Shown here: positions 12,620 to 33,724 of the stretch, piece after piece | Layout: each line of letters starts with the position of its first letter | Numbering within the stretch: position 1 is the stretch's first letter | Origin: Pelotomaculum isophthalicicum JI | Lineage (GTDB): Bacteria > Bacillota > Desulfotomaculia > Desulfotomaculales > Pelotomaculaceae | Length of the DNA stretch: 36,422 nt | Assembly: GCF_029478095.1 (NCBI RefSeq) | Contig: NZ_JAKOAV010000035.1 | Span: 1-36,422, forward strand | Reading direction: 5' to 3' | Made by a program: the position numbers and the translations under genes | The notes under the pieces: model-generated | What the model was told of the DNA's origin: nothing | The model's input: only the letters and a program-made list of their open reading frames with translations | Database searches by the model: none

Positions 12620-12660
12620 GGCCCTTACCACATGTCAACGAGTGGTAAGGGCCGTTTTAT
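12620..12660 (+). terminator. Terminator after the Rpn remnant
   Basis: A perfect 12-bp stem GGCCCTTACCAC/GTGGTAAGGGCC (12620-12631 and 12642-12653) with a 10-nt loop is followed by GTTTTAT. It is 20 bp after the remnant's stop codon. Confidence 0.8.
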
Positions 12661-12891
12661 AATCATTAGAATGAAATACCAGGAAGTTGACCGCAATGGA
12701 AATTACCGAGAAATTTATCTAAAGGATAAGAAAAAATACATCGGCAAGTTCCAGATCGCTGCAAACCTCTAGAAAAAATTATTCTTGAATGCCCGGCAAG
12801 ATTTTGTTAAAATTAATTTACAAAATTTATATATAAATAAAGTATAAAATTTTGCAAAACCTCATACTATATTATTATAGACAGGAGAGAA

Positions 12892-14314: not shown

Positions 14315-14656
14315 GATTAAGCAATAACCTTGCCGCCCACCCGTCTTTTAGCGAATAGCAGCCCTCTATGGAAATCACTCTGCTGGCAATTCCAAGCATG
14401 AAACCTTGCAGCATAATTTTATCCTTTCAAAACGCATTCCACCGGCTCGCGCATCTCCACGTTTTGCCCGGCCACATCCCGGCAACATATTGATTATGCA
14501 CACAAAACCTGATATTAACAATAGGGAGAACGCTGCTCCATTTACTAGATATAGATGGATTTCCAAGCATATTCATAATTACCTTAAACCGAAATTCTGA
14601 ATATAATATATAGATGTAGCGGTAAACTCCCACATAAAACAAAGAAGGGGTATCCC
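14315..14656. other. Intergenic region before the lipase gene
   Basis: This holds no convincing gene; the short ORFs on both strands lack ribosome binding sites and domain features. A TATAAT at 14602-14607 with a poor -35 (TTACCT, 17-bp spacer) may be the lipase promoter. Confidence 0.4.
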
Positions 14657-15904: not shown

Positions 15905-15923
15905 GAAACACCTTCCTTTTTGG

Positions 15924-16799: not shown

Positions 16800-16887
16800 T
16801 ATACCTGCCTCTTTTCCATACTTCAATTTATAAAATTCCAATTCGAGGTATTATTCACAATCAGCTAAATGGCGATATCAGTATAGT

Positions 16888-17085
16888 TTAAACCAACGAA
16901 AATTGGATCCCATCATCACGAGCTAGTTTATTCATCCGGTCGCCGATGATCATCCTATAATCACGAGAGTCCTTCAGGTACCATTCAAGGACCTTCAGAG
17001 ATGCCGGGAAATACTTGCGGTAAACCTGCCGCAACCGGCCAACCGCTGATGGGTAGGCTGATCCACTCCTAGCACCTCTCATCAT
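16888..17085 (-). CDS. Small hypothetical ORF (65 aa), doubtful
   Basis: This is a basic, arginine-rich ORF without domain, signal peptide or membrane segment. It lies between the pseudouridine synthase and the lipoprotein gene on the same strand. No clear ribosome binding site precedes its ATG. The part from VGRLRQVYRKYFP to the end could be a remnant of a larger protein. It may not be a gene. Confidence 0.2.
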   Translation of the reverse strand: MMRGARSGSAYPSAVGRLRQVYRKYFPASLKVLEWYLKDSRDYRMIIGDRMNKLARDDGIQFSLV

Positions 17086-17112
17086 CTGTAACCGAAGGTA
17101 AAATATCTAAAT

Positions 17113-17790
17113 TTAACTGGGCAGCTTAAAAATCACCTGCTCATCTTTTGAATTCTTACTCACAAAAGCCCTGACCTTATCCGTCATCTTATTCCCCTCA
17201 TTTTTTATGAGTGCCGTATATTCATTAAGAAGCGACGCAAAGGCGGTGCCTTTGTATTTTAGCTGCGAGTCTTCGTAACTTTTTAGGTACTCCTTCGAAA
17301 AAATATTGCTCCCGTCCATCCATTGAAACGAAGATGTGTACTTAAAATTGCCGAACATGTAGTCGTGCAGGTATTCGCTTCTCCATTTACTTATTTCTTC
17401 CCTATACGGCGAGTCTGGATAATCCTCCAGGAACTTGTATGTCGCCGCAATTCTGGCGGCCAATTCGTCAAGACTGATAATTCTTTTATAATCGTCACTA
17501 ACCAGCCCGGCATATGGCATACTTTTCTCCCTGTCTTTTATGGACTTGTAATCTGCAGCCTCCCTATCCCGGTTATTTTTCTGCTCAGTGACCTTTTCGA
17601 CCTCAGCCGGGTTCTTTACAGCGGGCTGAGGAGCGTTAATCGCAGGTTTGACTTCAACCACAGCGTTATCTTTGTCCGGAGAAGTATTATCTTCCATGCC
17701 TTTTAATTGATCTTTTTGGATTGAGCAGCCTGAGAATAACATCGCGGCCAATAATAAACATGCCAAATAATATTTTTTCATCTTACCCAC
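17113..17790 (-). CDS. Predicted lipoprotein, unknown function
   Basis: This 225-aa protein has a basic start (MGKMKKYY), a hydrophobic core and a lipobox LFSGC with the modified Cys at residue 22, so it should be lipid-anchored on the outer face of the membrane. A proline- and charge-rich linker (about 25-90) follows, then a helical domain with KFLEDYPDSPYREEISKWRSEYL, a TPR-like spacing often seen in tetratricopeptide lipoproteins. No enzymatic motif seen. It is transcribed in the same direction as the exporter genes upstream, but 130 bp apart. Confidence 0.8.
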   Translation of the reverse strand: MGKMKKYYLACLLLAAMLFSGCSIQKDQLKGMEDNTSPDKDNAVVEVKPAINAPQPAVKNPAEVEKVTEQKNNRDREAADYKSIKDREKSMPYAGLVSDDYKRIISLDELAARIAATYKFLEDYPDSPYREEISKWRSEYLHDYMFGNFKYTSSFQWMDGSNIFSKEYLKSYEDSQLKYKGTAFASLLNEYTALIKNEGNKMTDKVRAFVSKNSKDEQVIFKLPS

Positions 17791-17924
17791 CTCACTAAAA
17801 ATCTATAGGGAGTGCCGGCAATGATATCAGCACGTTTTAATTATACAATAAGATGTACAATATACCAGCAAGATACTATGTAAAACTGGTTTCTCCCGGT
17901 TGCTTGTCCCCCTTGCAGTCGTTA

Positions 17925-18740
17925 TCAATGACTGATCGCCAGTGAATTCCTTTCATAATCTTTAATCACTTCGTTCACAGCACCGGCTCTTGCTAACCGG
18001 CCGTTATTTAGCCAAAGAGCGCTTTTGCATAAATATTTGACTAATTCAATGTTGTGGCTAATAAATAAAATTGTCCGTCCCTCCCTGGCGAAGGATTTTA
18101 TTTTCTCGAGACATTTTTTCTGAAACGCTATATCCCCAACAGCCAGTACCTCATCAATGAGTAATATATCCGGCTCAAGATGTATGGCCACGGCAAAGGC
18201 AAGCCTGATATGCATTCCGCTGGAAAATCTCTTAACCGGAGTATCCAGGAGCTTCTCAATTTCAGCGAAACTGACAATCTCATCAAATTTAGCTTTTATT
18301 TCTCGCTTGGTCATGCCTAATACAGCGCCGCTGAGATAAATATTTTCTCTTCCCGTAAGCTCCGGATGAAATCCTGTGCCGGCCTCCAACAGGCAGGAAA
18401 GCTTGCCGCTGATTTCGACATAGCCGCCGGTAGGCTCAGTAACCCTTGACAGTATTTTAAATAGAGTGCTTTTACCAGCCCCGTTGCTGCCGACAATACC
18501 CAGCACGTCACCTTCATTAACCTCAAAGGATACATCTCTCAAGGACCAGATTATATCTTCTCCACCGCTTAATAATTCTTCACTGTTGAATTTTGTCAGC
18601 TTTCGCAGACTGAATAGATTTCTGACTGGAGTGCTAATTCCATACATAATGGCTTCACGGAGTGTTCTGGGTCTACTATTGGTAATCCCGATACGGTAGC
18701 ATTTAGACACCTCGTGTACCTTAATAATGGGATTAGCCAT
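17925..18740 (-). CDS. Polysaccharide/teichoic acid ABC exporter, ATP-binding subunit (TagH/Wzt type)
   Basis: This 271-aa ATPase has Walker A GSNGAGKST (about 85), the ABC signature in VKRFSSGMHIRLAFAVA, Walker B ILLIDEVLAVGD, and the switch His in ILFISHNIEL. The DEVLAVGD-F-Q-K-C run and the GAVLGMTKREI segment are typical of TagH/RfbE/Wzt proteins that export undecaprenyl-linked teichoic acid or O-antigen-like glycans. It ends soon after the nucleotide-binding domain, without the C-terminal carbohydrate-binding domain of longer Wzt proteins. It lies 18 bp downstream of its permease gene, in one operon. No glycosyltransferase genes lie nearby. Confidence 0.93.
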   Translation of the reverse strand: MANPIIKVHEVSKCYRIGITNSRPRTLREAIMYGISTPVRNLFSLRKLTKFNSEELLSGGEDIIWSLRDVSFEVNEGDVLGIVGSNGAGKSTLFKILSRVTEPTGGYVEISGKLSCLLEAGTGFHPELTGRENIYLSGAVLGMTKREIKAKFDEIVSFAEIEKLLDTPVKRFSSGMHIRLAFAVAIHLEPDILLIDEVLAVGDIAFQKKCLEKIKSFAREGRTILFISHNIELVKYLCKSALWLNNGRLARAGAVNEVIKDYERNSLAISH

Positions 18741-18758
18741 TACAATTCCCCTTAAACC

Positions 18759-19568
18759 TTAGATGATATCAGCAAAAAAACGTTCCACTTGTTGAAAATA
18801 GAATAAACCTGACCCAAAAAGAATTATGCTGGTTAAAACAGAAACCAGAATAATGTGCCAAGGAAAAGGGATAGTCCCTAACAGAGCGGCCCGAAATCCC
18901 TCAATTACTCCAGCCACCGGATTTAACGCGTAAAGAAGCTGGTATTTTACCGGCACCATAGATGCCGGGTAAACAATTGGTGACGCAAACATCCACAACT
19001 GCAACAAAAATGGAATGGTCACCGGAATATCCCGGTATTTTGCGCTCAAAGCCGAAAGGAACATTCCGGCGCCGCTTGCGGCAAAGAACATTATAATAAC
19101 TAATAATGGAAAAAGTAGTGTCAAAACAGTGGGGTAAATATGGAAATAAAGCATAATACCGATTAACACCACGAAGGCAATGGAAAAGTCCAGTAAACCT
19201 GCCAGCGCAGGAGCCAGCGGTATGAGCAGGCGCGGAAAATAAACCCTGGATATTAATTTCATATTTCCAATCAAGCTATTGCCGGAACGTGTTACAGTGC
19301 TGGCAAAATATTGCCAGGCAATCATTGCGGAAAAGTAAAAAACAGGATAGGGAATACCATCAGATGGGAGTTTAGCCAACTTACCCATAAAAACAGTAAA
19401 AATGATCATTAAAAAAAATGGCTGAATAACTGTCCATAGTCCGCCAAGAACGGTTTGCCTATAACGTACTTTTATTTCTTTGGCGACCAGGAAATATAAT
19501 AATTCCTTATAGCTGCCCAATTCTTTTAGGTCTATTAACTGCCGGCCTTTCCTGGGCCTGATCATCAA
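18759..19568 (-). CDS. Polysaccharide/teichoic acid ABC exporter, permease (TagG/Wzm type)
   Basis: This 269-aa ABC-2 type membrane protein has six hydrophobic segments. It carries the family pieces LKELGSYKELLYFLVAKEIKVRYRQTVLGGLWTVIQPFF near the N-terminus, and FLLQLWMFASPIVYPASMVP and LNPVAGVIEGFRAALLG in the second half. With the adjacent ATPase it should form a 2+2 exporter for lipid-linked glycans such as wall teichoic acid or other cell-surface polysaccharide. The ribosome binding site is weak (AAAGGAAAAC, about 16 bases upstream). Confidence 0.93.
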   Translation of the reverse strand: MMIRPRKGRQLIDLKELGSYKELLYFLVAKEIKVRYRQTVLGGLWTVIQPFFLMIIFTVFMGKLAKLPSDGIPYPVFYFSAMIAWQYFASTVTRSGNSLIGNMKLISRVYFPRLLIPLAPALAGLLDFSIAFVVLIGIMLYFHIYPTVLTLLFPLLVIIMFFAASGAGMFLSALSAKYRDIPVTIPFLLQLWMFASPIVYPASMVPVKYQLLYALNPVAGVIEGFRAALLGTIPFPWHIILVSVLTSIILFGSGLFYFQQVERFFADII

Positions 19569-20571: not shown

Positions 20572-20621
20572 CTGAAGCTATTCAGACCAGTGTGCAACAG
20601 GCTAGCGTCAAGGGTATATTA

Positions 20622-20630
20622 TGGTATAAT
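20622..20630 (+). promoter_or_regulatory. Extended -10 promoter of tcdA
   Basis: TGGTATAAT is a perfect TATAAT preceded by the TGn extension, 30 bp before the tcdA start. No good -35 box is visible, as is common for extended -10 promoters. Confidence 0.55.
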
Positions 20631-20659
20631 CAAAAAAAGATAGCAAGTTGTGAGGTTAA

Positions 20660-21427
20660 ATGCTAAACGAATTTTCAAGAACTGAATTACTAATTGGGAA
20701 AAAGGCAGTAGAGAAGTTGGCGCAGAGTATGGTCGCCGTTTTTGGCATAGGCGGTGTGGGAACTTATGCGGTCGAAGGGCTCGTGCGAGCCGGTGTCGGT
20801 AAGTTTATGCTGGTGGATGACGACTGCATATGCCTCACCAATCTCAACAGACAACTTCACGCTACCAGGAAGACGGTAGGCAAGCCCAAGGTTGAGGTTA
20901 TGCGGGATAGAATTCTAGATATTAATCCGAAGGCTGATGTAGTCACCCGTCAAACATTCTATATGCCGGAACATGCCCGGGAGCTAGTCAAACCGGAGTA
21001 CGACTACATCGTCGATTCAATCGATACGGTAACTGCCAAGATCGACTTAATCCTGAACGCCAAACAGCAGAACATTCCGATAATAAGCTGCATGGGGGCC
21101 GGCAACAAACTTGACCCGACTAGATTTGAAATTGCTGATATATATGAAACTTCTGTATGCCCCCTGGCCAAGGTAATGCGCAAAGAACTGAGAAAAAGGG
21201 GGATAAACGCTCTTAAGGTCGTTTATTCGAAAGAGGAGCCGATCAGCCCCATAGAAACTGACGAGTCCAGCTGCCGGTTCAATTGTATTTGCCCCAAGGG
21301 CACAACCAGAAAATGTACAGTTCGTCACCAGATTCCGGGCAGCATATCATTTGTACCCTCAGTGGCAGGTCTGCTGATGGCGGGCGAGGTCGTAAAGGAC
21401 TTGATTAATCCTTTGAAGAACATTTAA
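20660..21427 (+). CDS. tcdA: tRNA threonylcarbamoyladenosine dehydratase
   Basis: This 255-aa E1-like enzyme has the nucleotide-binding GIGGVGTYAVEGLVRAG (about 30-46), the DDDCICLTNLNRQLHA ATP-site block, and VDSIDTVTAKIDLI. It ends with the TcdA-type VPSVAGLLMAGEVVKDLI. The enzyme uses ATP to dehydrate t6A37 in ANN-decoding tRNAs to the cyclic form ct6A. It is distinguished from MoeB and ThiF by the SCMGAGNKLDPTRFEIADIYETSVCPLAKVMRKELRKRGI stretch. The start has GTGAGG a few bases upstream and an extended -10 promoter. Length is normal. Confidence 0.92.
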   Translation: MLNEFSRTELLIGKKAVEKLAQSMVAVFGIGGVGTYAVEGLVRAGVGKFMLVDDDCICLTNLNRQLHATRKTVGKPKVEVMRDRILDINPKADVVTRQTFYMPEHARELVKPEYDYIVDSIDTVTAKIDLILNAKQQNIPIISCMGAGNKLDPTRFEIADIYETSVCPLAKVMRKELRKRGINALKVVYSKEEPISPIETDESSCRFNCICPKGTTRKCTVRHQIPGSISFVPSVAGLLMAGEVVKDLINPLKNI

Positions 21428-21494
21428 TATAATTCGTTCTTGAATTCGTTCTTGATTTTTGGATTCGAATCGAAAAAAAGGAGTAGTTGTTTCA

Positions 21495-21848
21495 ATGCGG
21501 GCAAGAAAATATACATCAATAATTCTTACGCTGGCGTTTATTATTTTGTCTGTTACAGGTATTCAAATGCATATGATGCATGTAACATCGGAACCGCATG
21601 GGCCGCGTGGGCCACATGGACCGTTTGGAACAGAAGGAGTTGGGAATTCTCCGGTTATAAATGAGTCTGGGAAAAGCAATATTTCTACCGGCACTTTACC
21701 CACGAAATCCGAAGATGGTTTTTATCCTAAAAGGCTGCATGAATTGGCGGGATATACGTTTATTATCGCGGCACTGGTTCATTTAAAATTGAATTACAAA
21801 ACTCTCATTTCGCACATTGGAATAAAAAAAAGCAAGGTGCGTCTTTGA
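21495..21848 (+). CDS. DUF4405-type membrane protein
   Basis: This protein of 117 aa has two hydrophobic helices (about 8-25 and 85-105). Between them lies a His-, Gly- and Pro-rich segment with HMMHVTSEPHGPRGPHGPFG. The second helix region (KRLHELAGYTFIIAALVHLKLNYKTLISHI) has the conserved H...H pattern of DUF4405, a family related to the two-helix haem-binding cytochrome b units. Haem or metal binding is possible but not shown. The start at 21495 was chosen because AAAGGAG lies about a dozen bases upstream; an earlier in-frame ATG at 21459 lacks such a site. It is the last gene before the large transposon. Confidence 0.65.
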   Translation: MRARKYTSIILTLAFIILSVTGIQMHMMHVTSEPHGPRGPHGPFGTEGVGNSPVINESGKSNISTGTLPTKSEDGFYPKRLHELAGYTFIIAALVHLKLNYKTLISHIGIKKSKVRL

Positions 21849-21990: not shown

Positions 21991-21998
21991 ATTTTTAG
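21991..21998. repeat. Left target-site duplication (ATTTTTAG)
   Basis: These eight bases directly next to the left terminal inverted repeat are identical to 32019-32026 next to the right one. Eight bp is the duplication size reported for ISL3-family transposition. Confidence 0.85.
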
Positions 21999-22022
21999 GG
22001 GTATTCGGATTATCGTGTTGAT
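21999..22022 (+). repeat. Left terminal inverted repeat
   Basis: 24 bp starting GGGTATTCGGATTATCGTGT, identical to the reverse complement of 31995-32018. Beyond it the two ends share further weaker similarity (ACCTAAA against TTACCCTAAA). Confidence 0.9.
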
Positions 22023-22049
22023 ACCTAAATTTTGAAACCAGCGGATAAA

Positions 22050-22069
22050 TCGGATTATCGTGTTGATTT
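22050..22069 (+). repeat. Internal third copy of the terminal repeat
   Basis: TCGGATTATCGTGTTGATTT repeats 20 bases of the right-end repeat in the same orientation as the left end, starting 45 bp inside it. It matches the right end slightly further than the outer left copy does. It may be a second transposase-binding site or a relic of an earlier end. Confidence 0.85.
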
Positions 22070-22220
22070 TACAATAGATTACTGGTAATTATATTTCAAA
22101 TTTTTTGTTTAACCCTCACTAGGCTCGGTAACAGCAAAATCTCAGTTATCTTAACTAAAATAGTGGATGTCTGATCACTAGATCGATCGGCAGTAAATAT
22201 ATTTATTGAGATAATAAAAC

Positions 22221-22262
22221 AGCCATTTTCCTTGCGCACAGGAATATGGCTATTTTTATTTT
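22221..22262 (+). terminator. Terminator inside the transposon left end
   Basis: The stem AGCCATTTTCCT/AGGAATATGGCT (22221-22232 and 22240-22251) has one mismatch and is followed by TATTTTTATTTT. No gene lies between the transposon end and this hairpin, so it would block transcription entering from outside. The remaining stretch, 22070-22593, has no ORF. Confidence 0.75.
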
Positions 22263-22523
22263 AAAAATTCTTTTAACGTACAGTTTACCGAATTAGAAAA
22301 TACATTATGTCATTTTTTATCTGCTAAGTAATTAAGATTTTGCTTTTTATGAAAGTTGCTTTCCCGACTATAAAATTTTATTAATAGATAAGAAAAAATG
22401 TCAAAATGTGTAGAGATTTGTCGGTAATTATTGCCATGGAATATGCAGGAATATAGAAAATAATCTTGAATGTTTAGGAGATTTGTCATTAATAAAACAA
22501 AAATAACAAGCCGGTGCGAAACA

Positions 22524-22554
22524 AAATCGTTTTAATACATTGATAAAACGATTT
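22524..22554 (+). promoter_or_regulatory. Hairpin in the RHS gene leader
   Basis: An 11-bp perfect stem AAATCGTTTTA/TAAAACGATTT with a 9-nt loop lies 40 bp before the RHS start codon, flanked by CCGG on both sides that can extend it. It has no T run, so it is more likely a regulatory site or mRNA structure than a terminator. Confidence 0.5.
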
Positions 22555-22593
22555 GCCGGTTAACCGCCCACTACGAGAAAGGGGATTATCAGT

Positions 22594-22962
22594 TTGAAAA
22601 AAATCTTAATTTATTTGTTAATATTATCTCTCCTAGTAAACATACCTCTTCCGGCCTTTGCCCAAAGCAAATATATATCTGCGGGACAAGATACTACTAT
22701 CCCTACCGCCCTTACAGGCATAGAAAATAAGGATGGCTCAGAGAACTCATTGCCTCAAACTGATAAAGACCGGTCGGTATCCAAAAAAGTTTACGAAGAC
22801 ATGACAAATATTGAACAACAACCCCCGATAAACGATGAACACATAGTACTTGACTCTTATTCACATGAATCAGTTGAAAGTTTCAAATACGGCCACTCCG
22901 CATTCTATAACACCCTCAAAGAAAAAAACAAACTGGATATTTTAGATAAAACATCTAAATGA
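22594..22962 (+). CDS. N-terminal part of the RHS gene, with signal peptide, ending at an in-frame TGA
   Basis: This 122-aa reading starts at a TTG preceded by AGAAAGGGG. Its first 23 residues are a clear signal peptide (KKILIYLLILSLLVNIPLPAFA followed by Q). The rest is low-complexity with SVSKKVY- and SAFYNTL-type units. The TGA at 22960-22962 is in the same frame as the large RHS reading that follows, and there is no other stop codon between here and 28422. The same motif family (SVSGEVY, TVSNEVY, PISAELYN) continues on both sides of the TGA. I therefore see one gene of 1,942 codons with codon 123 changed to TGA. The stop may be a mutation, a sequencing error or, less likely, a recoded codon. 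Confidence 0.75.
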   Translation: MKKILIYLLILSLLVNIPLPAFAQSKYISAGQDTTIPTALTGIENKDGSENSLPQTDKDRSVSKKVYEDMTNIEQQPPINDEHIVLDSYSHESVESFKYGHSAFYNTLKEKNKLDILDKTSK

Positions 22963-23019
22963 AAGCCAATATCAGCAGAATTATATAACAGTCTCATTCA
23001 AAATAACAGACAAGACCTT

Positions 23020-26000
23020 TTGAACAAATTATTAGCTCAAGGGCGAACAGTATCAAATGAAGTATATAATACAGAACAGTCAGTGTCAGGTGAGGTATAC
23101 CAACTTCAAAATAAGTCCGCTAGTGAAATAATTAATCAAAAAAAGGATAAATCAGTTATAGAAATGGTATACGGAAATCAAGAAAAATCCGTACCCAGTA
23201 CATTAAACAATACAGCGGATCAGACGATGTATACAATGGCAATGCAGTCCAGCACAGACCAATCGTGGTATAACACATTAGTAGGTCCATCCGCCACGAA
23301 CGGGGTTAACAATGAACAATATTCCGCCTGGTCTGATACAGATGAAATAGTATCACCCCAGACCGGTGACCTAACGATCAAACAAACAGACATTAAACTC
23401 CCGGGCAGAAACGGCCTGGACTTAAATATCAGCAGGATTTACCAGAGTAATCAAGCATTATGGGGGGATAGACGATTAGCAGGAGACGGCACCGGATACA
23501 ATGATTATTCAACATATTATCAGAACAGGTACGACCTCGGTTTGGGCTGGGCTTTCGGGTTTCCGTCCGTCCAGGTGGAACAGCAGGGTTGGAGAAAAGA
23601 ACTTTACTATCATACCGGTGATGGGAGCATATACCACGTTAATTTTTCCGCCGGAACGTACAGCAACCTGGAGAACTATTACGCTAAAGACGCAAAGTTT
23701 GATAACGATACCGGCTTTTCCAACGGACAGGTTACATCCCAGTATTCTTTTACCACGGCCGACCAGACTAAAAGGTATTTTGCCGCAGACGGCCGTCTAC
23801 TGGGCGTTGTAGACCGCTTTGGAAACCAAATTACATTCAAACATACAGAAAAGCCTGTAGCCAACTACGCCCCTAACAATGACTTTGAATATCCGGAGTA
23901 TTTGGGTGTTTGGTCAACCGAAGGGAGATCTTATCTTCAGTCGCCATTTTACTATGATCAGACATTTGGCAAAGATGATAACACTTCATTGAAGTACCAA
24001 GGTAGCGGAGAAAAAAGTGCATTTTCAAGCTACATACCAGTATTACCAAATACCAAATACTATCTAAGCGGGTATATGAATAATCAATTTACAAGGGGTT
24101 GGGCTCAGCTTGCGTATCGTGTATATGATTGGAATTATGACCTTATTCAATATGGTGCTACTAGCCCCAGTAACCAAAATATATGGGAGCAATTAGCTAC
24201 GCAAACAATTGAAACCAATTCAGACGCAAGATATGTTCAAATAGAATTCTGTACTTTTAATTTACCAAACGGCACTGTAAGCGGCACATCATGGTTGGAT
24301 AAAGTAAGATTTGACCGGGCTTGGCCGTTGATTTCCGAAATTACCGACAGCATCGGGCGAAAAGTGACTTTCACATATAACGATACGCTTTATCAAGACG
24401 ATAACACTTACAGTGCGGGAACAATTACCGTTAATGTTGCTGATCCCTCGGCGACAAATAACTATACCTTAACCTATGACAAGAGCCGTGGAGAAACCGC
24501 GTATCATTGGGTTTCATATGACCAATATGGATATCTAGTAGGATGGAACGAACAGAGGAGATACCCGATACTTATATCATATTATAATGGAGAATTGTAC
24601 AATTTGTATGGATATACAACTCCACTCGAATATTTTGATTATCATGATTCATATAAAAACGATAATTCCGGCAGTATGTATCGATCTTTATTATACTGTA
24701 TGGAACTGAGGGGTTCTGAAACAAGATATGATTATCAAATGACAACAAAATGGTTGGGGGATTATGGGTTTTACGAAACCCATAGAATTTCCAACAGATT
24801 TGAAAAAAATTACTACGATAGTGATTATTATTATATTGGTTACCAAGGTAATTATTATCACCGTTCCTATTCATATAGCGGAAACTATAACGGAACTGTA
24901 TACGATAATGAAACAGGGTATCCTAATAACCTGTTCAAAAATCCAAATTACTATTTTACCAGCACCATGCAGCAGGACAATGGCTTGACTATTAAAGAGA
25001 CATACAAAGGTAATGAGACATATAAAGGCCAATTGAAGTATAAAGAGGAGAAATACAACAACTCCAGCGGGGATAAAGAGTTCACCTACTGTGATGAATA
25101 CGATCCTAATTTTCTGGATAACGTCACCAAGATTAGAATAGAGCAATATAACGCCAATAACAACGTCAATATACTATACCAGGGATACACATATAACGAC
25201 TGGGGCGGTATGGCTTCAGAAACAACTCTGCTGACATCGGAGCAGTGGAGCGACGCTACCGTTAAAAGCCAACATACCACCAGCTATACTTATGATCCGA
25301 CCTATAAGTTTCTGACGTCAAAAAGTTATTACCTGAAGCCCGGGTTAATGTTGACCGAGTCGATTAACTATGACACTCTGGGGCGCATTATTTCCACAAC
25401 CGACACCAAGGGTGAGACCACCGATTACCAGTATGGGGACACAAACCATCCGGGTAATTTCACCAGAGTAAACGTCCGTTACAGTGACGGTCGGAACAGC
25501 GCAACCGATTATAACTATTCCGGTGCTTATTTTGCCTTTCCCACAACCGTCACAAATTACTACACAGAGGAAGGAGTCCAGAAAACCAGCACAACCCAAA
25601 AAAGTTATGAATTTATCTGGGGCAACGTGGCCAGTGAAACAGATGCTCTTGGCAATGTATCCAGTTACAGCTACGATACACAAGGAAGGATCAAAAAAAT
25701 AACCCACCCGGCATCAACAGGTCAAAGCGGAAATTATGTGGTGGAGGATAACTTTGACTATGCCAGGTATGTAGAGGAAACTTTCTTTGGAGGACAGAGG
25801 CTCCTTAGAGTTAGAAGCTATAAGACTAATAATGGCTCCACATTCTCAGATACCTATAACTATTATGATGATCACGGTAAAATGCTTTTATCTAAGTATT
25901 ATGATTACGAATCCACTTATTGGATCCCCACGGTATATGGATATAACGATTACGGACAGTTAAGCTCACTAAGAGTTATTGGCAATGTGACAAACTATTT

Positions 26001-28422
26001 GAGCGACGAATGGGGCCGGTTGCAGAAAGTTACCGACCCACAGGGGAATTATTATAACTTTGATTACGATATAATCAACCGTACCAAGACCACCACATTT
26101 GTTCCTGTAGACACTGGCGTAGCCGAAAACCATTACATTGAAACAAGCGACCAGTGGGGCCGGACAATATCTAGAAAAGGCTTTCCCGACGGGCCGAGCG
26201 GGCCCACTGTGGTTGAAGAAAAGTACGAGTATGACTCTGAAGGCAACCTAACCAGACAAACAGACGCCAATAACAATATCACATTATATGGTTATGACGC
26301 TTTGAACAGACTAAACAAGGTTACCAACGCCCTAGGTGAGACTACTGACTATGATTATGACCGACTGGGGGATCTTACCTGGATTAAACAATATCAGGGT
26401 ACAAGCACCTTTTCCACAGTGAAACAGTATAGCGAAAGAGGCGCATTGGTGTCCAAACAGCCCCCGGCGGGGCAGCCCACCACCTGCAAATATAACGCCA
26501 ACGGTTTGCCAAAAGAGGTAATAGACGCCTCCGGTAAAAGTACGACCATGCAATATTATCAAGACAATAAACTCGCCGAGAGAAGGGCTAACCATGACCG
26601 TATAAATTACTACTACAGCCCCCTGGGAGGTGTGGAGAAATACCAGCCCGTAAACGACACTACCGGAAACGGTGAGGCGTTAACCTATGATTATTATTAC
26701 GGCACCGGACTTGTCAAACATAGAACAATTAGCGGTTATGTCGTTGGCTTCATTTATGATGATTTTGGGAACAAACGAAATGATTTCTATCCTTCTGGTT
26801 TTGGTACGTATTACAGTTATGATAATTTGAACAGGTTAACAAGTGTTTACGATTTAAATACTGGAAAATCCTTCACCTACGAATACTACGGCGACGGGAT
26901 GGTCAAGGCGGTCAACTATCCCCAGTTGGCCAACGGGTCAATCATCCGCACCGAATATACTTACGACAACATCAATCGGCTAAAGACCATGAAAAACTTG
27001 GTTGGTGGACAAGTTGTCACACAATATAGCTACGGTTACGACAGCAACGGCAATATTACCTCGGCAACTGAAAACGGCCAGACTACAAATTACACTTACG
27101 ATGCCTTAAACCGGCTTACCGGGGTACAAAGACCGGACGGTACAACCATCAGTTATCAGTATGACACCAGGGGTAACAGGATATCATCAAGCAATAATAT
27201 GTCGAATACGGTTATTCCCAGAATATTAAGCTATAACAATTGGGATCAGTTGGCCACATTTACCTCCAGCGGAACTGCGTATAACTACTACTATGATCCT
27301 GAAGGATTGAGGTGTAAAAAGGTTACCCTTTCTGGTACTACGAGATACCATTATGATAACGCAGGCAGAGTTATCGCTGAGTCAAATGAAAGCGGTGCCT
27401 TCACAGCAGAGACAATCTGGGGAGACAAGGCACTGGCACGTAAAGTAAGCGGTAACTATTGCTACTACTTGTACAACGGTCACGGAGACGTAACCCAGGT
27501 TATAGACCAAAACGGGAATGTAGTCGACAGCTACACTTATGACGAGTGGGGAAATATAACTTCCAAGCAGGAACAGTTGCCGCAGCCGCTTAAGTATGCA
27601 GGAGAGTATTACGACGACGAGAGTGGGCTGTACTACCTGAGGGCAAGATATTACGATCCAAGTGTTGGAAGATTTATATCTCAGGATTCAGTTGAAGGGA
27701 GCATTACCAATCCTCTGAGTTTGAATCTTTATACCTATGTAAGAAATACTCCGGTGATTTATGTTGATCCGAGTGGTTGTTATCTAGTAGGGCTAAGAGA
27801 GTGGATTACAAATCATGAAGGAGAGGTAGAGTGGGATGCTGAAAGCAGATCAGCTGTAACATATTTAGAGCGAGATGGCCGACGATATACTTATCAATAT
27901 TATATTGACGATTATATTGTTGAAGATGACCATATAATGGTTGATGATGCCCAACTTTTGCGTGAATATAATCTTGATGGTTCTGTTGATGTAATTGGTC
28001 CTACTGATGAAGAAATATTGCAATTTGCACAGGAGATGGTTTTTACCGGTGGTTTAGGTACGTTGGAAAGACGGGGGGTTGGTTCACTAGCTGGGAAGGC
28101 TGCAGGTAGAGCTTTAACTACTCCTGCCCGTCTTGTACAAGAAGGTCAAACTGCTGTTATTGGGAAAATGAGTGATTTGAATGCACCTGGTGCAATAGGT
28201 AGTGCCGAATTTAAGGTTGCTGATTATTTACCAGACATGGGAAGTCCAAAAGCAAATTGGGCGCAGAATTCTGGTATCCTTAGAAGTATAATGAAAGTAG
28301 GAAACCCTATTAAGGATGTATCGCCTTATCCCATGAAGAACGCAGGTTTCTTGGGAGCAGAAAGAAATCTACTTGAATCTAAAGGATGGTTCTATAATAA
28401 CGGCTACTGGTATGCACCATAG
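23020..28422 (+). CDS. RHS/YD-repeat polymorphic toxin, main part (1,800 aa)
   Basis: From the first possible internal start (TTG, no good ribosome binding site), the layout is: motif-repeat linker (1-100); DUF6531-like region (SPQTGDLTIKQTDIKLPGRNGLDLN, about 112); a carbohydrate-binding-like insert (FEYPEYLGVW to SWLDKVRFDRAW, about 288-435); and dozens of YD repeats such as YDALNRLTGVQRPDGTTISYQYD. The RHS core (AGEYYDDESGLYYLRARYYDPSVGRFISQDS) ends with VDPSG at residue 1586. The family folds into a shell that holds a C-terminal toxin. The last 214 residues here form the variable toxin region, with ANWAQNSGILRSIMKVGNPI and FLGAERNLLESKGWFYNNGYW near the end, no assigned activity. An immunity-type gene follows by 20 bp. 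Without the upstream part the product lacks a signal peptide. Confidence 0.88.
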   Translation: MNKLLAQGRTVSNEVYNTEQSVSGEVYQLQNKSASEIINQKKDKSVIEMVYGNQEKSVPSTLNNTADQTMYTMAMQSSTDQSWYNTLVGPSATNGVNNEQYSAWSDTDEIVSPQTGDLTIKQTDIKLPGRNGLDLNISRIYQSNQALWGDRRLAGDGTGYNDYSTYYQNRYDLGLGWAFGFPSVQVEQQGWRKELYYHTGDGSIYHVNFSAGTYSNLENYYAKDAKFDNDTGFSNGQVTSQYSFTTADQTKRYFAADGRLLGVVDRFGNQITFKHTEKPVANYAPNNDFEYPEYLGVWSTEGRSYLQSPFYYDQTFGKDDNTSLKYQGSGEKSAFSSYIPVLPNTKYYLSGYMNNQFTRGWAQLAYRVYDWNYDLIQYGATSPSNQNIWEQLATQTIETNSDARYVQIEFCTFNLPNGTVSGTSWLDKVRFDRAWPLISEITDSIGRKVTFTYNDTLYQDDNTYSAGTITVNVADPSATNNYTLTYDKSRGETAYHWVSYDQYGYLVGWNEQRRYPILISYYNGELYNLYGYTTPLEYFDYHDSYKNDNSGSMYRSLLYCMELRGSETRYDYQMTTKWLGDYGFYETHRISNRFEKNYYDSDYYYIGYQGNYYHRSYSYSGNYNGTVYDNETGYPNNLFKNPNYYFTSTMQQDNGLTIKETYKGNETYKGQLKYKEEKYNNSSGDKEFTYCDEYDPNFLDNVTKIRIEQYNANNNVNILYQGYTYNDWGGMASETTLLTSEQWSDATVKSQHTTSYTYDPTYKFLTSKSYYLKPGLMLTESINYDTLGRIISTTDTKGETTDYQYGDTNHPGNFTRVNVRYSDGRNSATDYNYSGAYFAFPTTVTNYYTEEGVQKTSTTQKSYEFIWGNVASETDALGNVSSYSYDTQGRIKKITHPASTGQSGNYVVEDNFDYARYVEETFFGGQRLLRVRSYKTNNGSTFSDTYNYYDDHGKMLLSKYYDYESTYWIPTVYGYNDYGQLSSLRVIGNVTNYLSDEWGRLQKVTDPQGNYYNFDYDIINRTKTTTFVPVDTGVAENHYIETSDQWGRTISRKGFPDGPSGPTVVEEKYEYDSEGNLTRQTDANNNITLYGYDALNRLNKVTNALGETTDYDYDRLGDLTWIKQYQGTSTFSTVKQYSERGALVSKQPPAGQPTTCKYNANGLPKEVIDASGKSTTMQYYQDNKLAERRANHDRINYYYSPLGGVEKYQPVNDTTGNGEALTYDYYYGTGLVKHRTISGYVVGFIYDDFGNKRNDFYPSGFGTYYSYDNLNRLTSVYDLNTGKSFTYEYYGDGMVKAVNYPQLANGSIIRTEYTYDNINRLKTMKNLVGGQVVTQYSYGYDSNGNITSATENGQTTNYTYDALNRLTGVQRPDGTTISYQYDTRGNRISSSNNMSNTVIPRILSYNNWDQLATFTSSGTAYNYYYDPEGLRCKKVTLSGTTRYHYDNAGRVIAESNESGAFTAETIWGDKALARKVSGNYCYYLYNGHGDVTQVIDQNGNVVDSYTYDEWGNITSKQEQLPQPLKYAGEYYDDESGLYYLRARYYDPSVGRFISQDSVEGSITNPLSLNLYTYVRNTPVIYVDPSGCYLVGLREWITNHEGEVEWDAESRSAVTYLERDGRRYTYQYYIDDYIVEDDHIMVDDAQLLREYNLDGSVDVIGPTDEEILQFAQEMVFTGGLGTLERRGVGSLAGKAAGRALTTPARLVQEGQTAVIGKMSDLNAPGAIGSAEFKVADYLPDMGSPKANWAQNSGILRSIMKVGNPIKDVSPYPMKNAGFLGAERNLLESKGWFYNNGYWYAP

Positions 28423-28442
28423 TAAGAAAGAGTGGCGATAAT

Positions 28443-29042
28443 ATGGGTAATAGTAAAAATAGGATAATGCTTGGTTTCCAGGATGCGGTTAAAAAGTATT
28501 TTGCTTTTCTTGAAGACCAGTATGGGTTTAGGTGTAATTATTCCGATTTGTATATTGTGAAATTCAGTTCTGGTAAAGTTTTTTTAAACATCTATCACGA
28601 GAGAATTTCTTATGAAATTTACATTGTAATTGGTATATTACCTGAGAATTATAATAATCAATTGAAAGCAAATTTAAGTGATATTTTAGAAATGTCAGGT
28701 ATAACAAATGAACGGACATTCTACCAGGCTAGTAATAAAAATGATATTTATGTGGTTATTAAAAAGCTTTCAGATTTGGTAAGGATATATGCAAATGATG
28801 CTCTTAATGGTTCTATTGATTACTTCAAAGCAATATTAGAGGAGAGAATACAAAGACAACAAAACAAATTGATTTTACAAGAACTTAAAGTAGCGGAAAA
28901 AAAAGCCAATAGCGCATGGGATAGTAAAGACTACAAAAAGGTAGTAGAAATATACTATCGATTTGAAAAATATTTAAGTTTAGTTCAAATTAAGAGATTA
29001 GATTATGCTAAGAAAATGATTTCCGAACATATGAAGGATTAA
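28443..29042 (+). CDS. Probable cognate immunity protein
   Basis: This 199-aa cytoplasmic protein starts 20 bp after the RHS stop codon and has no signal peptide or membrane segment. A beta-rich N-terminal half (FQDAVKKYFAFLEDQYGF, then IVKFSSGKVFLNIYHERISYEIYIVIG) precedes a long charged helical C-terminal half. I do not recognise the family with certainty. The immunity role is inferred from position: genes directly after the variable end of RHS toxins usually neutralise that toxin. Like the toxin region it is clearly AT-richer than the RHS repeats, which suggests the two were acquired together. Confidence 0.6.
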   Translation: MGNSKNRIMLGFQDAVKKYFAFLEDQYGFRCNYSDLYIVKFSSGKVFLNIYHERISYEIYIVIGILPENYNNQLKANLSDILEMSGITNERTFYQASNKNDIYVVIKKLSDLVRIYANDALNGSIDYFKAILEERIQRQQNKLILQELKVAEKKANSAWDSKDYKKVVEIYYRFEKYLSLVQIKRLDYAKKMISEHMKD

Positions 29043-29064
29043 TTAAAAAAGTAGAATTAGTGTT

Positions 29065-30552
29065 ATGGCAAAATCTTGTGATCTAACTATTGAGAGTATT
29101 TATATCTTAGGATTCTGTAAAAGGGAGATAGCGGATCCGAATATTACAATTTCTAATCTTTACCCGACCGGAGTAATACTTAGCTGGACTGCTGCCACTG
29201 ATAACGTGGGAGTAGCCAGCTACACAGTATACCGGGACGGCACACTGTTGGGTACTGTAAATGGTACCAGTTATAACGTAACCGATTTGACACCAAACAC
29301 AAGCTATACCTTCAAAGTTGAGGCAGGTGATATGGCTGGTAATTTCAGCACCAACGGCCCCAGCGTAATGGTGACTACATCATTCTTAGAAGTCGTCAAG
29401 CCGTTTAACTGCAATGGTTACAGTTACACGCAAAGCACCAAAACCTTAAAGATCTTCTTCAGCAAACAATCAGCTACCACCAATGAATTTGATGCATATG
29501 GGAGCCAGTTTGTAGTTACAAGGCAATATGACAGCTCTAACCCGGCGTTCAGTTACTCCAGAAATACGGGAAGCGGCTACAGTGGTGTTAGTGACAGCAA
29601 CCTCAACAAGGGCACAACCGTTACCATGACCTTTGATGATGCACTTAGTGCCGATGAGCTTTACGATGTAACAATCAAAGCGGCCACCGTCGCTGACGAC
29701 GACTTATTGACCCTGGGCAACTATCGGAACAGGAGCGACTTCACCTTTACCTTCAGGACTCCTATTTCGGGGGATACAACCTTCAGTAATACCGTGCCAG
29801 TGATCACTTCTACGGTGTTACCTTCAAACGTGGCCTATGAGTCCGACTTCGGTATCATTTTTGACCGGCCAGTTTGCTCCATCAGCGCTGCCACCTTATT
29901 GAGTCTGACTGATCCCAATAGCCTGGTGGCAAACTATAAAAAGGGTGGAACAACCGTGGTCTATGACAGCGTCATCGACGCGGGTGCCGTTCCCGGCGCA
30001 GAGAACTACAAACCATTTGCTAACACCGCGAACACCTATTTCTTCTTCCCTGAGGCCTCTTCAATTGATGATGATAATACTATCACCTATTGGCGGGATA
30101 ATTCCACCGGCACCCACAGCTATGCCCTGGACATACCGCCTGTCACCGACATTAGCGGAAATTCCTTTACTCATGCCCAACTCGGCACGATCAGTTTCAG
30201 CTCACTTAACAACGACCTCCCCGCCTGGCTGGACAAAAGGCCCACGGTTGATACTCCAACCAGCACCACGCTGACGGTGCACTGGAACGCCAGCGGCATC
30301 ACCAATTCTAGCGCAATCGAAGCGTATGACGTCTACTATTCCACCAACCAGTGGACGGGCTTTATGAAAATTAATATAAGTGACATCACCGGTACCGCTC
30401 CTTTCTCATTCGTGGCCGGGGACACTATGGATAATAGTGCATATGAGCTAAGCCCTTGTACCACTTATTACTTCCGAGTCGTGCCCAAGAATACCACCTA
30501 CACCCTTGAAGCGGGTTTCTCCGTGGCCGGATCAGGTTTTACGACCTCTTAA
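29065..30552 (+). pseudogene. FN3/Ig-like surface protein, 5'-truncated
   Basis: The 495-aa ORF contains a fibronectin type III domain (about 24-105; ILSWTAATDNVGVASYTVYRDG and LTPNTSYTFKVEAGDMAGN). Two bacterial Ig-like (Big_5/SbsA-like) stretches follow (about 112-240 and 240-380), then a second FN3-like domain (about 385-495). Such proteins are normally exported and larger. Here there is no signal peptide, no ribosome binding site before the ATG, and the first about 21 residues (MAKSCDLTIESIYILGFCKRE) do not look like part of any domain. Base composition also rises from AT-rich to about even at about 29,125. I read this as the C-terminal part of a larger surface protein joined to foreign DNA. 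It may or may not be translated. Confidence 0.6.
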
Positions 30553-30581
30553 AACAATGTGAAATAAGCTGTTATTCTCAG

Positions 30582-30606
30582 CCCCGGCCGTCAGGCTGGG
30601 GTTTTT
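30582..30606 (+). terminator. Terminator between cargo and transposase
   Basis: The 8-bp stem CCCCGGCC/GGCTGGGG (30582-30589 and 30594-30601, one GU pair) has a GTCA loop and is followed by TTTTT. It separates the cargo genes from the transposase gene. Confidence 0.85.
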
Positions 30607-30646
30607 AAAAGCCTCGGGATTTTTTAATTAAGGAGGCATTTAACCG

Positions 30647-31411
30647 TTGAACATCTTAAACCTTTCAAACTTTAATGTACAAGGCGTTACAGAAAATGAT
30701 CTTGATTACTGCATTACGGTGGAGACAGCATCTCCACCGTTTTACTGCCCTCACTGTGGTTCGGTAGTTAAGAATAATCTCACACGTTTTGGGCGAAAAA
30801 ATCAAATGTTTATGGATCTACCCATGCATGGAAAGCGTGTTGGCATTTTAGTATTACGTCAGCGTTATCGCTGCAACGATTGTAATACAACGTTTTTAGA
30901 AGTCCTGCCGGATATGGATGAGAAACGACAGTTAACAAAACGCCTTATTAAATATATAGAAGAACAATCACTTAAACGTACATTCTTGAGTATTTCTGAA
31001 GATGTTGGTGTAAATGAAAAAACAGTTAGGAACATTTTCCGAGACTATGTTAATCATCTCGAAAAAACTATACGCTTTGAAACTCCACAGTGGCTTGGTA
31101 TAGATGAAATTCATATTATTAAACCGCGCTGTGTTATTACCAATATAAAAGAGCAGACAGTTATCAACTTACTACCATCACGTAACAAGGAAACACTTAT
31201 TCGCTACCTTATGAGCCTTCCAGACCGGGAGAGAATCCAGTATGTTTGTATGGATATGTGGGAGCCATACCGGTCTGCTACAATAGCTGTCCTGCCAAAT
31301 GCAAAAATAATCGTTGATAAATTTCATATTGTCCGGATGGCCAACCAAAGCCTGGAATATATTCGAAAGAGCGTCAGAGAAAGCTTAACCCCAAACAGCG
31401 CCGGATACTGA
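30647..31411 (+). CDS. ISL3-family transposase, N-terminal part (frame 0)
   Basis: This 254-aa reading has a TTG start ten bases after a perfect AGGAGG. The N-terminal zinc finger is present (CPHCGSVV and CNDCNTTF, about residues 32-88). An HTH region follows, then the first two catalytic aspartates, in WLGIDEIHI and YVCMDMWEPYRSA. It continues as DKFHIVRMANQSLEYIRKSVRESL, where homologues go on to the KQRR-LMHDR region. Instead this frame runs into TPNSAGY and stops at 31411, one base overlapping the next ORF. The normal sequence (PKQRRILMHDRY) is recovered by a -1 shift at 31390-31396. Alone it lacks the catalytic Glu. Confidence 0.85.
   Translation: MNILNLSNFNVQGVTENDLDYCITVETASPPFYCPHCGSVVKNNLTRFGRKNQMFMDLPMHGKRVGILVLRQRYRCNDCNTTFLEVLPDMDEKRQLTKRLIKYIEEQSLKRTFLSISEDVGVNEKTVRNIFRDYVNHLEKTIRFETPQWLGIDEIHIIKPRCVITNIKEQTVINLLPSRNKETLIRYLMSLPDRERIQYVCMDMWEPYRSATIAVLPNAKIIVDKFHIVRMANQSLEYIRKSVRESLTPNSAGY
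31390..31396 (+). promoter_or_regulatory. Canonical -1 slippery heptamer (C CCA AAC)
   Basis: In the frame of the upstream ORF the bases read ACC CCA AAC AGC. CCCAAAC fits X XXY YYZ, so a -1 slip keeps pairing at CCC AAA and continues as CAG CGC CGG, exactly restoring the conserved ISL3 sequence. A simple loss of one A from CCCAAAA would give the same picture. I see no strong downstream hairpin. Confidence 0.5.
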
Positions 31412-31989
31412 TGCATGACCGGTATATTTTATTAAAAAGGCGCAAGGATCTTACAGGAATGGAGCTTATGAAGCTTGAATCCTGGACACTTAACTATCCG
31501 GAACTGGGCATGGCACATGAGTTGAAAGAGTCATTTTATGAGATTTGGGAAATCGAGAACTCTAAAATGGCCAATGAAAAATATCAGGACTGGTTAAAAC
31601 AGCTTCCTCACACCTTGGGATTGGCTTTTCAGCCACTTGTTACTGCAATAAGTAACTGGCATAAAGAAATATTCGATTATTTTGATCATCCCAGCCGTCT
31701 TACTAATGCTTATACGGAGTCGCTTAATAACCTAATCAAGGTAACAAATCGCATTGGCAGGGGGTACTCTTTTGAAGCTCTTCGAGCACGCATTCTTTTT
31801 ACTGAAGGTTTACATAAGCAGCAAAAGCCGAAATACCCCAAGAGGTCGTTCTTGAGGGATCCCAGTCTCTTGATAAACAATATGCTGTTAAGAGAAGTAA
31901 TTAATGAGGATAAGATATATCTCCATAAATGTAATTACGGTGTGGACATATCAACATTGATCCGTTATTTGGGAGAAGGCTTATTTTAG
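31411..31989 (+). CDS. ISL3-family transposase, C-terminal part (-1 frame)
   Basis: This 192-aa reading starts at an ATG overlapping the stop codon of the upstream part (TGATG). It carries the rest of the DDE domain: MHDRYILLKRRKDLTGMEL, LKESFYEIWEIEN, and the catalytic Glu in LTNAYTESLNNLIKVTNRIGRGYSFEALRARILF. Joined by a -1 frameshift, the two parts give a protein of 447 residues, normal for ISL3 transposases. Translational coupling at TGATG could also make the C-terminal half separately. The stop codon lies five bases before the right terminal repeat. Confidence 0.85.
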   Translation: MHDRYILLKRRKDLTGMELMKLESWTLNYPELGMAHELKESFYEIWEIENSKMANEKYQDWLKQLPHTLGLAFQPLVTAISNWHKEIFDYFDHPSRLTNAYTESLNNLIKVTNRIGRGYSFEALRARILFTEGLHKQQKPKYPKRSFLRDPSLLINNMLLREVINEDKIYLHKCNYGVDISTLIRYLGEGLF

Positions 31990-31994
31990 GGTAA

Positions 31995-32018
31995 ATCAAC
32001 ACGATAATCCGAATACCC
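31995..32018 (-). repeat. Right terminal inverted repeat
   Basis: 24 bp, exact reverse complement of 21999-22022. Confidence 0.9.
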
Positions 32019-32026
32019 ATTTTTAG
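32019..32026. repeat. Right target-site duplication (ATTTTTAG)
   Basis: Identical to 21991-21998. On the minus strand it contains the TAA stop codon of the DEAD-box helicase gene (32023-32025), so the target was the very end of that gene. Confidence 0.85.
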
Positions 32027-33474
32027 TAAGTACGGTTTCCAAACCGGTTTTTCCCCTTGAACCCGCCAGTCCTATCGGCGCTTTTTTTGCCACTTCCACC
32101 TCTAAAGTATCCTCTCTCTCTTTGACTTGCAATCTTGTTTTTATTTTGTCTTACTCTGAGCGGTCTTTCCTCGGTCAGTATAACAGGGGTCCGGTCGGAT
32201 TCTTTCGTGAGCGCCTTTAACGCTGCTGCAAGAAGAGTAACTGCATCATTTTCTTTCAGCAAACCCTCTGCCAACCCCTTGTAATTTCCAGTATCCCCAT
32301 TTTCCACGGCAAGCAGGAGCCTATCAATTGCCTGGCGTTGTTGCCATTCAATCGCCTCTTTTATTGTTGGTATGGGTTTCCGAGTTATTTTCCCTCCGGT
32401 CATTTTTTCAATAATTTTTAAGTGATGAATCTCCCTCGGCGTGACAAAAGTAATTGCCTTGCCTGCTTTACCGGCACGGCCGGTACGGCCGATACGGTGG
32501 ACATAACCTTCCGGGTCCTGGGGGATGTCGAAGTTATATATATGGGTCACATCGCTGATATCCAAGCCCCTGGCGGCAACATCTGTGGCCACAAGCACTT
32601 CAACAGTACCTTCCCTGAACCGCCGCATCACAAAATCCCGTTTGGACTGGGCAAGATCTCCGTGGAGAGCTTCGGCCGAATAGCCGCGTTTAATCAATGC
32701 CTCAGAAATCTCGTCTACCCTGCGCTTGGTCCGGCCAAAGACAATGGAACGGTCCGGCGACTGGATGTCCATCAATCGGCAGAAAACATCGAATTTTTGT
32801 CTCTCTTCGACTTCAATATAGCTTTGTTCAGTGTTTGGGACAGTAACCTGCCTGCCTTCAGTCCTGATCACTTCCGGGCTCCTCATGAACCGCCGGGCCA
32901 AGGCTTGGATCGGACCGGGCATTGTCGCGGAAAAAAGCAAGGTCTGGCGCTCCTCGGGAACTTCCGCAAGGATGGTTTCAATATCCTCAATAAAACCCAT
33001 ATTCAGCATTTCGTCAGCTTCATCCAACACTACTGTCCTGACCTGGTTAAGGCGGATTGTTTTTCGACGCATGTGGTCCATGAGACGGCCAGGCGTTCCC
33101 ACGATAATATGCGGTCTGTTCTTAAGTGCCCTAACTTGACGGGTAATATCCTGACCGCCGTAAATCGGCAGCGTACGGATACCCTTCACCTGCCCGATTT
33201 TGTTCAATTCCTCGGCCACTTGTATGGCCAATTCACGGGTAGGGGTTATGACAATCCCCTGGATCGGTTCCCGTTCAACATCGAAGAACTCAATCATAGG
33301 GATACCAAAAGCTGCTGTTTTACCTGTCCCGGTGTGGGCTTGACCAATCAGGTCCTTCCCATTTAACCCCATAGGAATAGCCTTCTCTTGTATGGGTGTC
33401 GCTTCTTCGAAACCCATATTATTAATAGACCGCATCACCGGCCCGGTCAAACCAAAATCACTAAATGTTGCCAA
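32023..33474 (-). CDS. DEAD-box RNA helicase (CshA-like)
   Basis: This 483-aa ATP-dependent RNA helicase has all core motifs in order: Q motif [26 protein letters not shown], motif I AHTGTGKT, Ia PTRELA, GG and [44 protein letters not shown] and [13 protein letters not shown] basic Gly/Arg-rich C-terminal tail ([11 protein letters not shown]..., [12 protein letters not shown]) probably binds RNA. CshA-type helicases work in mRNA turnover, ribosome assembly and cold adaptation. It has a TTG start with AAAGGGGAAG upstream. The transposon inserted directly at its stop codon; the protein is intact, but its native 3' untranslated region is now 10 kb away. Confidence 0.95.
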
Positions 33475-33621
33475 TCTTTTATCTTCCCCTTTACTACTGT
33501 AATTTAACTGCTAATATCTTTCAATATACACATATAAGTATACCCATGCTATTTCTTTATCTTTCCGCATAATATTACCTAGCTCAAGGGTCATCTTTTC
33601 CAACAACTCATATAAAGAAAG

Positions 33622-33655
33622 AAGGGATTATCGCTATTCAAAGCAATAACCCCTT
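33622..33655 (-). promoter_or_regulatory. Imperfect hairpin upstream of the helicase gene
   Basis: The stem AAGGG-TTAT-GCT/AGC-ATAA-CCCTT has two single mismatches and a 6-nt loop. It lies 150 bp upstream of the helicase start, without a clean T run on either strand. It may be a weak terminator or part of a helicase leader. The rest of 33475-33724 and 33926-34109 shows no gene. Confidence 0.35.
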
Positions 33656-33724
33656 GAATTTCACAGCTCTTTATTTTACACTATTTCCGGTTCTTGTGCA
33701 ATCTTTTTGTTCTGGGTTGAGTCA

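Follow-up and report, generated by a model that had tools for sequence, protein, structure and literature searches.

A 10-kb ISL3 transposon with Rhs cargo and a split transposase gene in Pelotomaculum isophthalicicum

Genes and ends of the element

The window, which is the whole stretch of 36,422 nt from Pelotomaculum isophthalicicum JI that was analysed, contains an ISL3 transposon of 10,020 bp (21999-32018) with a single transposase gene at its right end and a left end located 8.6 kb upstream of that gene. The cargo between the left end and the transposase consists of three genes, for a Rhs protein, a putative immunity protein and a fibronectin type III protein (Table 1). By its transposase, ends and target-site duplication the element belongs to the ISL3 family.

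Table 1. Features of the ISL3 element and its borders, in window coordinates.
Feature	Position	Strand	Remarks
Left 8-bp target-site duplication	21991..21998	.	ATTTTTAG
Left terminal inverted repeat (LE)	21999..22022	+	24/24 match to RE in reverse complement
Subterminal repeat of the terminal-repeat core	22050..22067	+	18/18 match, placed 51 bp inside LE
Signal-peptide-like N-terminal part of the Rhs gene	22594..22962	+	in-frame TGA at 22960-22962 ends the ORF
Rhs/YD-repeat protein, remaining ORF of 1800 aa	23020..28422	+	PF05593 RHS_repeat, 1.2e-41
Rhs C-terminal tail past the Rhs core, putative toxin domain, 214 aa	27778..28422	+	
Putative immunity protein, 199 aa	28443..29042	+	directly downstream of the Rhs tail
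Fibronectin type III protein, 495 aa	29065..30552	+	PF00041
Transposase part 1 (Zn ribbon, HTH and start of the DDE domain)	30647..31411	+	PF14690, PF13542, PF01610 (positions 1-106)
C CCA AAC heptamer at the frame break	31390..31396	+	most likely a chance slippery-like motif
Transposase part 2 (remainder of the DDE domain)	31411..31989	+	PF01610 (positions 102-240)
Right terminal inverted repeat (RE)	31995..32018	-	similar sequence just past the transposase in many relatives
Right 8-bp target-site duplication	32019..32026	.	3' end of the DEAD-box helicase gene

The transposase gene is found in two frames that overlap by 90 nt, and apart from the frame break both parts are open. The DDE_Tnp_ISL3 domain (PF01610, length 240) is divided between the two parts, and the scores of PF01610 in both parts and of PF13542 and PF14690 are above the cut-offs. 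Part 1 also reaches 185.5 bits with the whole-protein model NF033550 (transpos_ISL3, cut-off 180), while part 2 gives 94.5 bits and falls under that cut-off, as is expected for only a portion of the protein. Part 1 has two Asp motifs, with codons at 31103 and 31253, and part 2 a Glu motif, with its codon at 31717; these are presumably the catalytic residues. Direct reading gives the frame-0 codons ACC CCA AAC AGC GCC GGA TAC TGA at the break and PKQRRILMHDRY as the translation of the second frame, and the TGA stop of the first ORF (31409-31411) shares one base with the ATG start of the second (31411-31413). The original prediction, made from the letters of this region, had described a transposase broken at a C CCA AAC heptamer, rejoined by a -1 step, with a TGATG overlap of stop and start and with the catalytic Glu only in the second part. 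The split, the -1 step that would rejoin the frames and the overlap are borne out by the sequence. What it missed is that the transposase lies at one end of a 10-kb element.

The left end was first detected as a 24-base inverted match when the transposase region was searched against the DNA of its own genome. The terminal repeats begin with GGGTATTCG, and thus have the GG start that together with an 8-bp duplication is listed for the ISL3 element ISArsp7 in PMC6305408. On the plus strand of the window the sequence ATTTTTAG occurs only at the two positions directly outside the repeats, where the duplication is 8/8, and the DEAD-box helicase ORF, on the minus strand, ends at 32023 within the right copy. 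With up to 3 mismatches the 24-bp terminal repeat is found only at these two places in the 3.6 Mb of the genome, and it was not found in the same-species genome G015 or the same-genus genome G016. Nor was any other copy of the element detected in these three genomes, and searches of the own genome gave one match for each transposase part and no other transposase of this kind. The subterminal repeat inside the left end is a probable second transposase-binding site. A core copy of at least 13/18 is located at +51 to +62 in 6 of the 9 relatives tested, and shuffled controls had a copy in this band in 8 cases out of 4500. Since the subterminal repeat is placed as in the relatives, position 21999 is a credible left end.

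The frame break in the transposase

Loci homologous to the transposase were collected from genome contigs (57), from searches of the class and the phylum (7) and from viral contigs (10), 74 in all. Nine of them do not align across the break site, and among the remaining 65, which include repeated copies, 64 run through the site in one frame and one (L027) is shifted; the motif CCCAAAC is not present around the site in any of the 65. Another comparison of the junction gave 50 loci in the same frame and one shifted; of these 51, L064 is only distantly related and does not belong to the 74. The closest relatives show 64-69% identity in part 1, and the comparison is therefore strong for the family but blind to very recent history. 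In the 3.4-kb element of the same-order genome G081 (about 65% identity) the gene is open through the site for 436 aa with no stop, and in Planococcus kocurii (about 65%) an annotated ISL3 CDS of 1338 bp continues uninterrupted through it. The locus with 69% identity, L043, is in a single frame at this site and decayed elsewhere.

The shifted locus L027 belongs to Candidatus Enterovibrio escacola. It has a -1 shift at the same place, with a different sequence there and without the heptamer, and a further frame change downstream; two sister copies in the same genome (L029 and L030) are in a single frame at the break site. L027 is an independent -1 lesion in a decayed copy. Frame changes occur somewhere in the transposase gene in 11 of the 57 genome-contig loci, indicating that decay of this gene is common.

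ISL3 transposases normally have a single ORF, and the deviation of the present copy looks like damage to one copy and not like another family plan, because nearly all aligned relatives are in a single frame. The original prediction had left two possibilities, programmed frameshifting or the loss of one base, to be decided by comparison with homologues. That comparison gives an intact single frame across the site in all aligned homologues except L027, and since these are also free of the motif, the lost base is favoured and the frameshifting alternative finds no support. The split is most likely the loss of one nucleotide, whichever base it was, in a short C/A run of an ordinary single-frame transposase gene, or an assembly error, and the heptamer is most likely a by-product of that lesion.

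An assembly or sequencing error, which would leave the transposase intact in the organism, is unlikely but has some points in its favour, namely that the lesion is the only one in an otherwise open gene and lies in a short C/A run, the assembly being a draft with 93 contigs. The run is, however, short, and there is a second lesion within the same element, the in-frame TGA in the Rhs gene.

Transposase synthesis by programmed -1 frameshifting is known from the IS3 elements. If it occurred at C CCA AAC it would yield the complete transposase, with transposition regulated by the short form or by a part 2 restarted at TGATG. The heptamer is in the right phase within the 90-nt overlap and joins the two overlapping frames, stop and start overlap by one base, both parts are otherwise open, L027 is also shifted by -1 at the same place, and frameshifting that arose recently in this lineage would be beyond the reach of relatives with 64-69% identity. 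In the accessible part of PMC4066793 it is considered very likely that IS elements make use of some heptamers of low efficiency ending in AAAC (A_AA.A_AA.C and G_GG.A_AA.C). The same part names V_VV.A_AA.R among the most efficient motifs in E. coli, which places the present motif, ending in A_AA.C, outside the most efficient class. Stimulators are there given as SD-like sequences 6-17 nt upstream or a structure usually 5-8 nt downstream, which are not always present in prokaryotes. None of the SD-like motifs listed in PMC4066793 is found in the 30 nt upstream of the heptamer. The sole hairpin begins 1 nt past the heptamer (z -1.34, with 17 of 200 shuffles equally stable), and a fold begun 5 nt past the heptamer is weaker than the shuffles (z +1.53), so that neither an SD-like motif nor, among structures other than pseudoknots, a correctly spaced hairpin was found. 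When the codons of the gene itself were sampled 20,000 times, 16% of the trials had at least one in-phase XXXYYYZ heptamer in an overlap of 90 nt, and 29 heptamers of the in-phase type are present in 35 homologous genes; the heptamer alone is therefore insignificant, although the split itself is real. The literature searched gave no report of programmed ribosomal frameshifting of an ISL3 transposase. With aligned homologues that, L027 apart, need no shift and that all lack the motif, with no stimulator found among the features examined and with a chance expectation of 16%, programmed frameshifting was rejected as very improbable.

Cargo and insertion site

The Rhs protein contains RHS/YD repeats and a Rhs-associated core (TIGR03696 Rhs_assc_core, 3.3e-24, residues 1507-1586). 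The signal-peptide-like part, where the signal peptide was judged by eye, is separated from the long ORF by the in-frame TGA, and the Rhs frame with its export signal is accordingly not continuous. The two pieces share the same frame, and variants of one motif (SVSKKVY, TVSNEVY and SVSGEVY) are found on both sides of the stop, which suggests that they are one broken Rhs gene.

The last 93-94 residues of the Rhs tail are about 75% identical to an ORF in genome G050, where this separate ORF of 152 aa, with a long Rhs ORF at a distance of about 2 kb, is directly followed by a homologue of the 199-aa protein with 46% identity. That the tail and the 199-aa protein have homologues as neighbours in G050 speaks for a putative toxin-immunity pair, with the activities predicted from gene arrangement. 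No transposase match was found in the 12 kb surrounding the pair in G050. The 199-aa protein is present in two of 113 genomes scanned in the class (G000 and G050), with weak matches in two others of a phylum sample of 398 genomes, and the tail matches three of the 113 (G000, G050 with residues 121-214, and G058 with only residues 3-68). Neither protein matches a Pfam or NCBIfam family at E <= 0.001, and with the limits relaxed to 5 there are only weak matches under the cut-off; against solved structures the tail gives three weak matches (E 0.076-0.71). PADLOC gave no match for the Rhs, putative immunity or fibronectin type III proteins, PHROGs had one family for the Rhs protein (residues 1485-1587) and none for the putative immunity protein, and a plasmid search gave no match for the putative immunity gene.

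The fibronectin type III gene has a paralogue in the same genome, with 83% identity between 29397-30605 (1.2 kb, terminator included) and C33:11203-12420, and part of the cargo therefore looks native to the lineage. In the C33 region (11036-18842, L077) an ORF of 443 aa covers the paralogue and is followed by an ORF of 1975 aa. This locus is possibly the kind of resident source from which part of the cargo came.

A site that apparently is free of the element is found in the same-genus genome G016. The matches to the ThiF region (window 20605-21408) and the DEAD-box region (32022-33671) are there located 58 bp apart on one contig, and the joined flanks of the window show 76% identity to contig C54 over 134 bp across the joint, where the left flank contributes only 24 bp, of which 8 are the duplication. 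The DUF4405 region further to the left (window 21473-21808) has its match on another contig of G016. Over window 20605-21808 the ThiF match adjoins the DEAD-box match on C54, and the TPR and DUF4405 matches are on C32. The gene order on the left side thus differs in G016, which points to a second rearrangement close to the insertion site. Contig C229 (L067) of the same-species genome G015 starts at window position 32019, the first base of the right duplication, and is 100% identical from there onward. A contig break of this kind could result from mixed occupied and empty sites, and the insertion may therefore be recent or polymorphic.

The least probable of the alternatives is that the Rhs block belongs to the resident chromosome and that the distant left repeat is a chance occurrence or the remnant of another copy; it would fit the fibronectin type III paralogue with its terminator, but is contradicted by identical 24-bp repeats that have matching 8-bp duplications exactly outside both and occur nowhere else in 3.6 Mb, by a left end with the subterminal site of the relatives, and by the G016 flanks, which lie close together with the block absent.

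Related elements and proposed origin

End pairs together with duplications of 7/8 or 8/8 were found in 27 distinct related elements of 1.9-6.1 kb, and the window element is the largest of the set examined. The general plan of the relatives is left end, further DNA, transposase and right end, with 0.6-4.7 kb from the left end to the transposase; a genuine passenger may be absent from the shortest of them. The 59 non-window loci contributed 15 end pairs, the 17 longer stretches 9 and the 10 viral loci 5, of which 2 are repeats. Five loci with no match to part 2 were left out of the 59-locus search, and 44 of the 59 have no end pair, in part because the flanks were limited to 3 kb. The count of 27 leaves out L107 and L108, which repeat L023 and L028 with the same length, ends and duplication, and L117, which is the 6,114-bp element of L087 at another site. 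One Enterovibrio genome accounts for five of the 27 (the copies L030, L044, L048, L053 and L056), and because of these and other near-copies the 27 are not independent cases. With a slightly looser search, end pairs were obtained in 31 of 81 loci (stretches and repeats included) versus 2 of 81 in a control with reversed upstream DNA, so about two of the related elements could be due to chance.

The passengers vary between the relatives, and the ten passenger proteins chosen from the ORF list are examples and not a census. L010 carries an ArsR regulator and an MFS transporter, and L028 a YopX protein. Three elements with end pairs and 8/8 duplications contain linked pairs of genes, namely a SacI-like restriction-modification pair (L011, 989-2982), an XcyI-like restriction-modification pair (L089, 14366-16226) and a HepT-like/nucleotidyltransferase (NTP_transf_2) pair (L021, 995-1689). 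The cargo of these three hints at a possible link between this ISL3 clade and addiction-like genes. An ORF of the size of Rhs is absent from the 24 other elements with listed ORFs, and Rhs cargo has thus been seen once.

Passenger-carrying members of the family are known. In the part of PMC6305408 that was available, ISPst2a/b are described with passenger genes, ISPst2 consisting of a transposase, a permease and an ArsR regulator, and its Table 3 gives ISArsp7 with ISL3 repeats of the GGCTCTTCG type and an 8-bp duplication. The window element is like these in family, repeat type and duplication, and like ISPst2 in having passengers, but measures 10 kb against 1,451 bp for ISArsp7 and 2,985 bp for ISPst2 as given there, and has Rhs cargo and a broken transposase. 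Another comparable case is an element of 6,114 bp on plasmid pA30H1 of Planococcus sp., with a transposase 65% identical (part 1), the same type of ends, an 8/8 duplication and cargo between the left end and the transposase, which is also present in Paenibacillus naphthalenovorans with another site sequence. Its cargo differs, with genes for ArsR, a cation transporter, a heavy-metal P-type ATPase and a DUF4346 protein. L011, L089 and L021 resemble the window element in plan, ends, duplications and linked poison/antidote-like pairs but are only 3.4-3.5 kb and have SacI-like, XcyI-like and HepT-like/NTP_transf_2 genes instead of Rhs.

Movement of a polymorphic toxin-immunity system by a transposon is described, in the accessible text of PMC6350997, for the CDI composite transposon of Burkholderia thailandensis; that transposon spans about 210 kb and is flanked on both sides by IS2-like elements, whereas the window contains one ISL3 unit with a single transposase. 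Gram-positive Rhs/WapA toxins, as far as the available part of PMC12704120 describes them, likewise are Rhs proteins with a variable C-terminal part, to which the window adds an immunity-like gene downstream; the Rhs gene of the window differs in being located inside an ISL3 transposon, with a putative toxin and with a frame interrupted near the N-terminus. The megatransposon of PMC12056078 was considered as a parallel and rejected, being IS1182-like. A Rhs cassette in an ISL3 element is not described in the accessible parts of PMC9846239 and PMC9709138, and no description was found in the literature searched, which covers the field in part and lies mostly outside subscription papers. The combination may therefore be new, while passenger-carrying ISL3 elements and a transposon-borne polymorphic toxin are known.

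With a probability of roughly 0.8, the window contains one ISL3 transposon of 10 kb that moved as a block, whose transposase gene later lost a nucleotide and whose Rhs gene gained a stop, with the heptamer as a by-product. The transposase would bind both ends, at two sites on the left and one on the right, and when intact would have moved the whole 10,020-bp block in one event. The fibronectin type III paralogue suggests that a block native to the lineage was captured, which might have occurred if, for example, two neighbouring copies lost their inner ends. Afterwards a single nucleotide would have been lost from the transposase gene at 31390-31396, and the in-frame stop would have arisen in the Rhs gene. 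Since the search of the genome gave no further transposase of this kind, the copy is probably immobile now, and we see in it a decaying cargo-carrying ISL3 element.

A wider idea, which we put forward tentatively and consider rather doubtful, is that this ISL3 clade captures DNA between its double-site left end and the transposase, with a preference for retaining poison/antidote cargo (restriction-modification, HepT/nucleotidyltransferase and Rhs/immunity) by which loss of the element would be punished. If true, the window element would be the largest member of the clade so far and the first with a Rhs cassette. The locus illustrates that decay can leave behind an attractive slippery site, and that a split gene may prove to be part of a 10-kb mobile unit once the true ends of the IS are located. 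Provided that the reading of the cargo is correct, ISL3 elements with a single transposase would offer one route for the movement of Rhs toxin-immunity cassettes.
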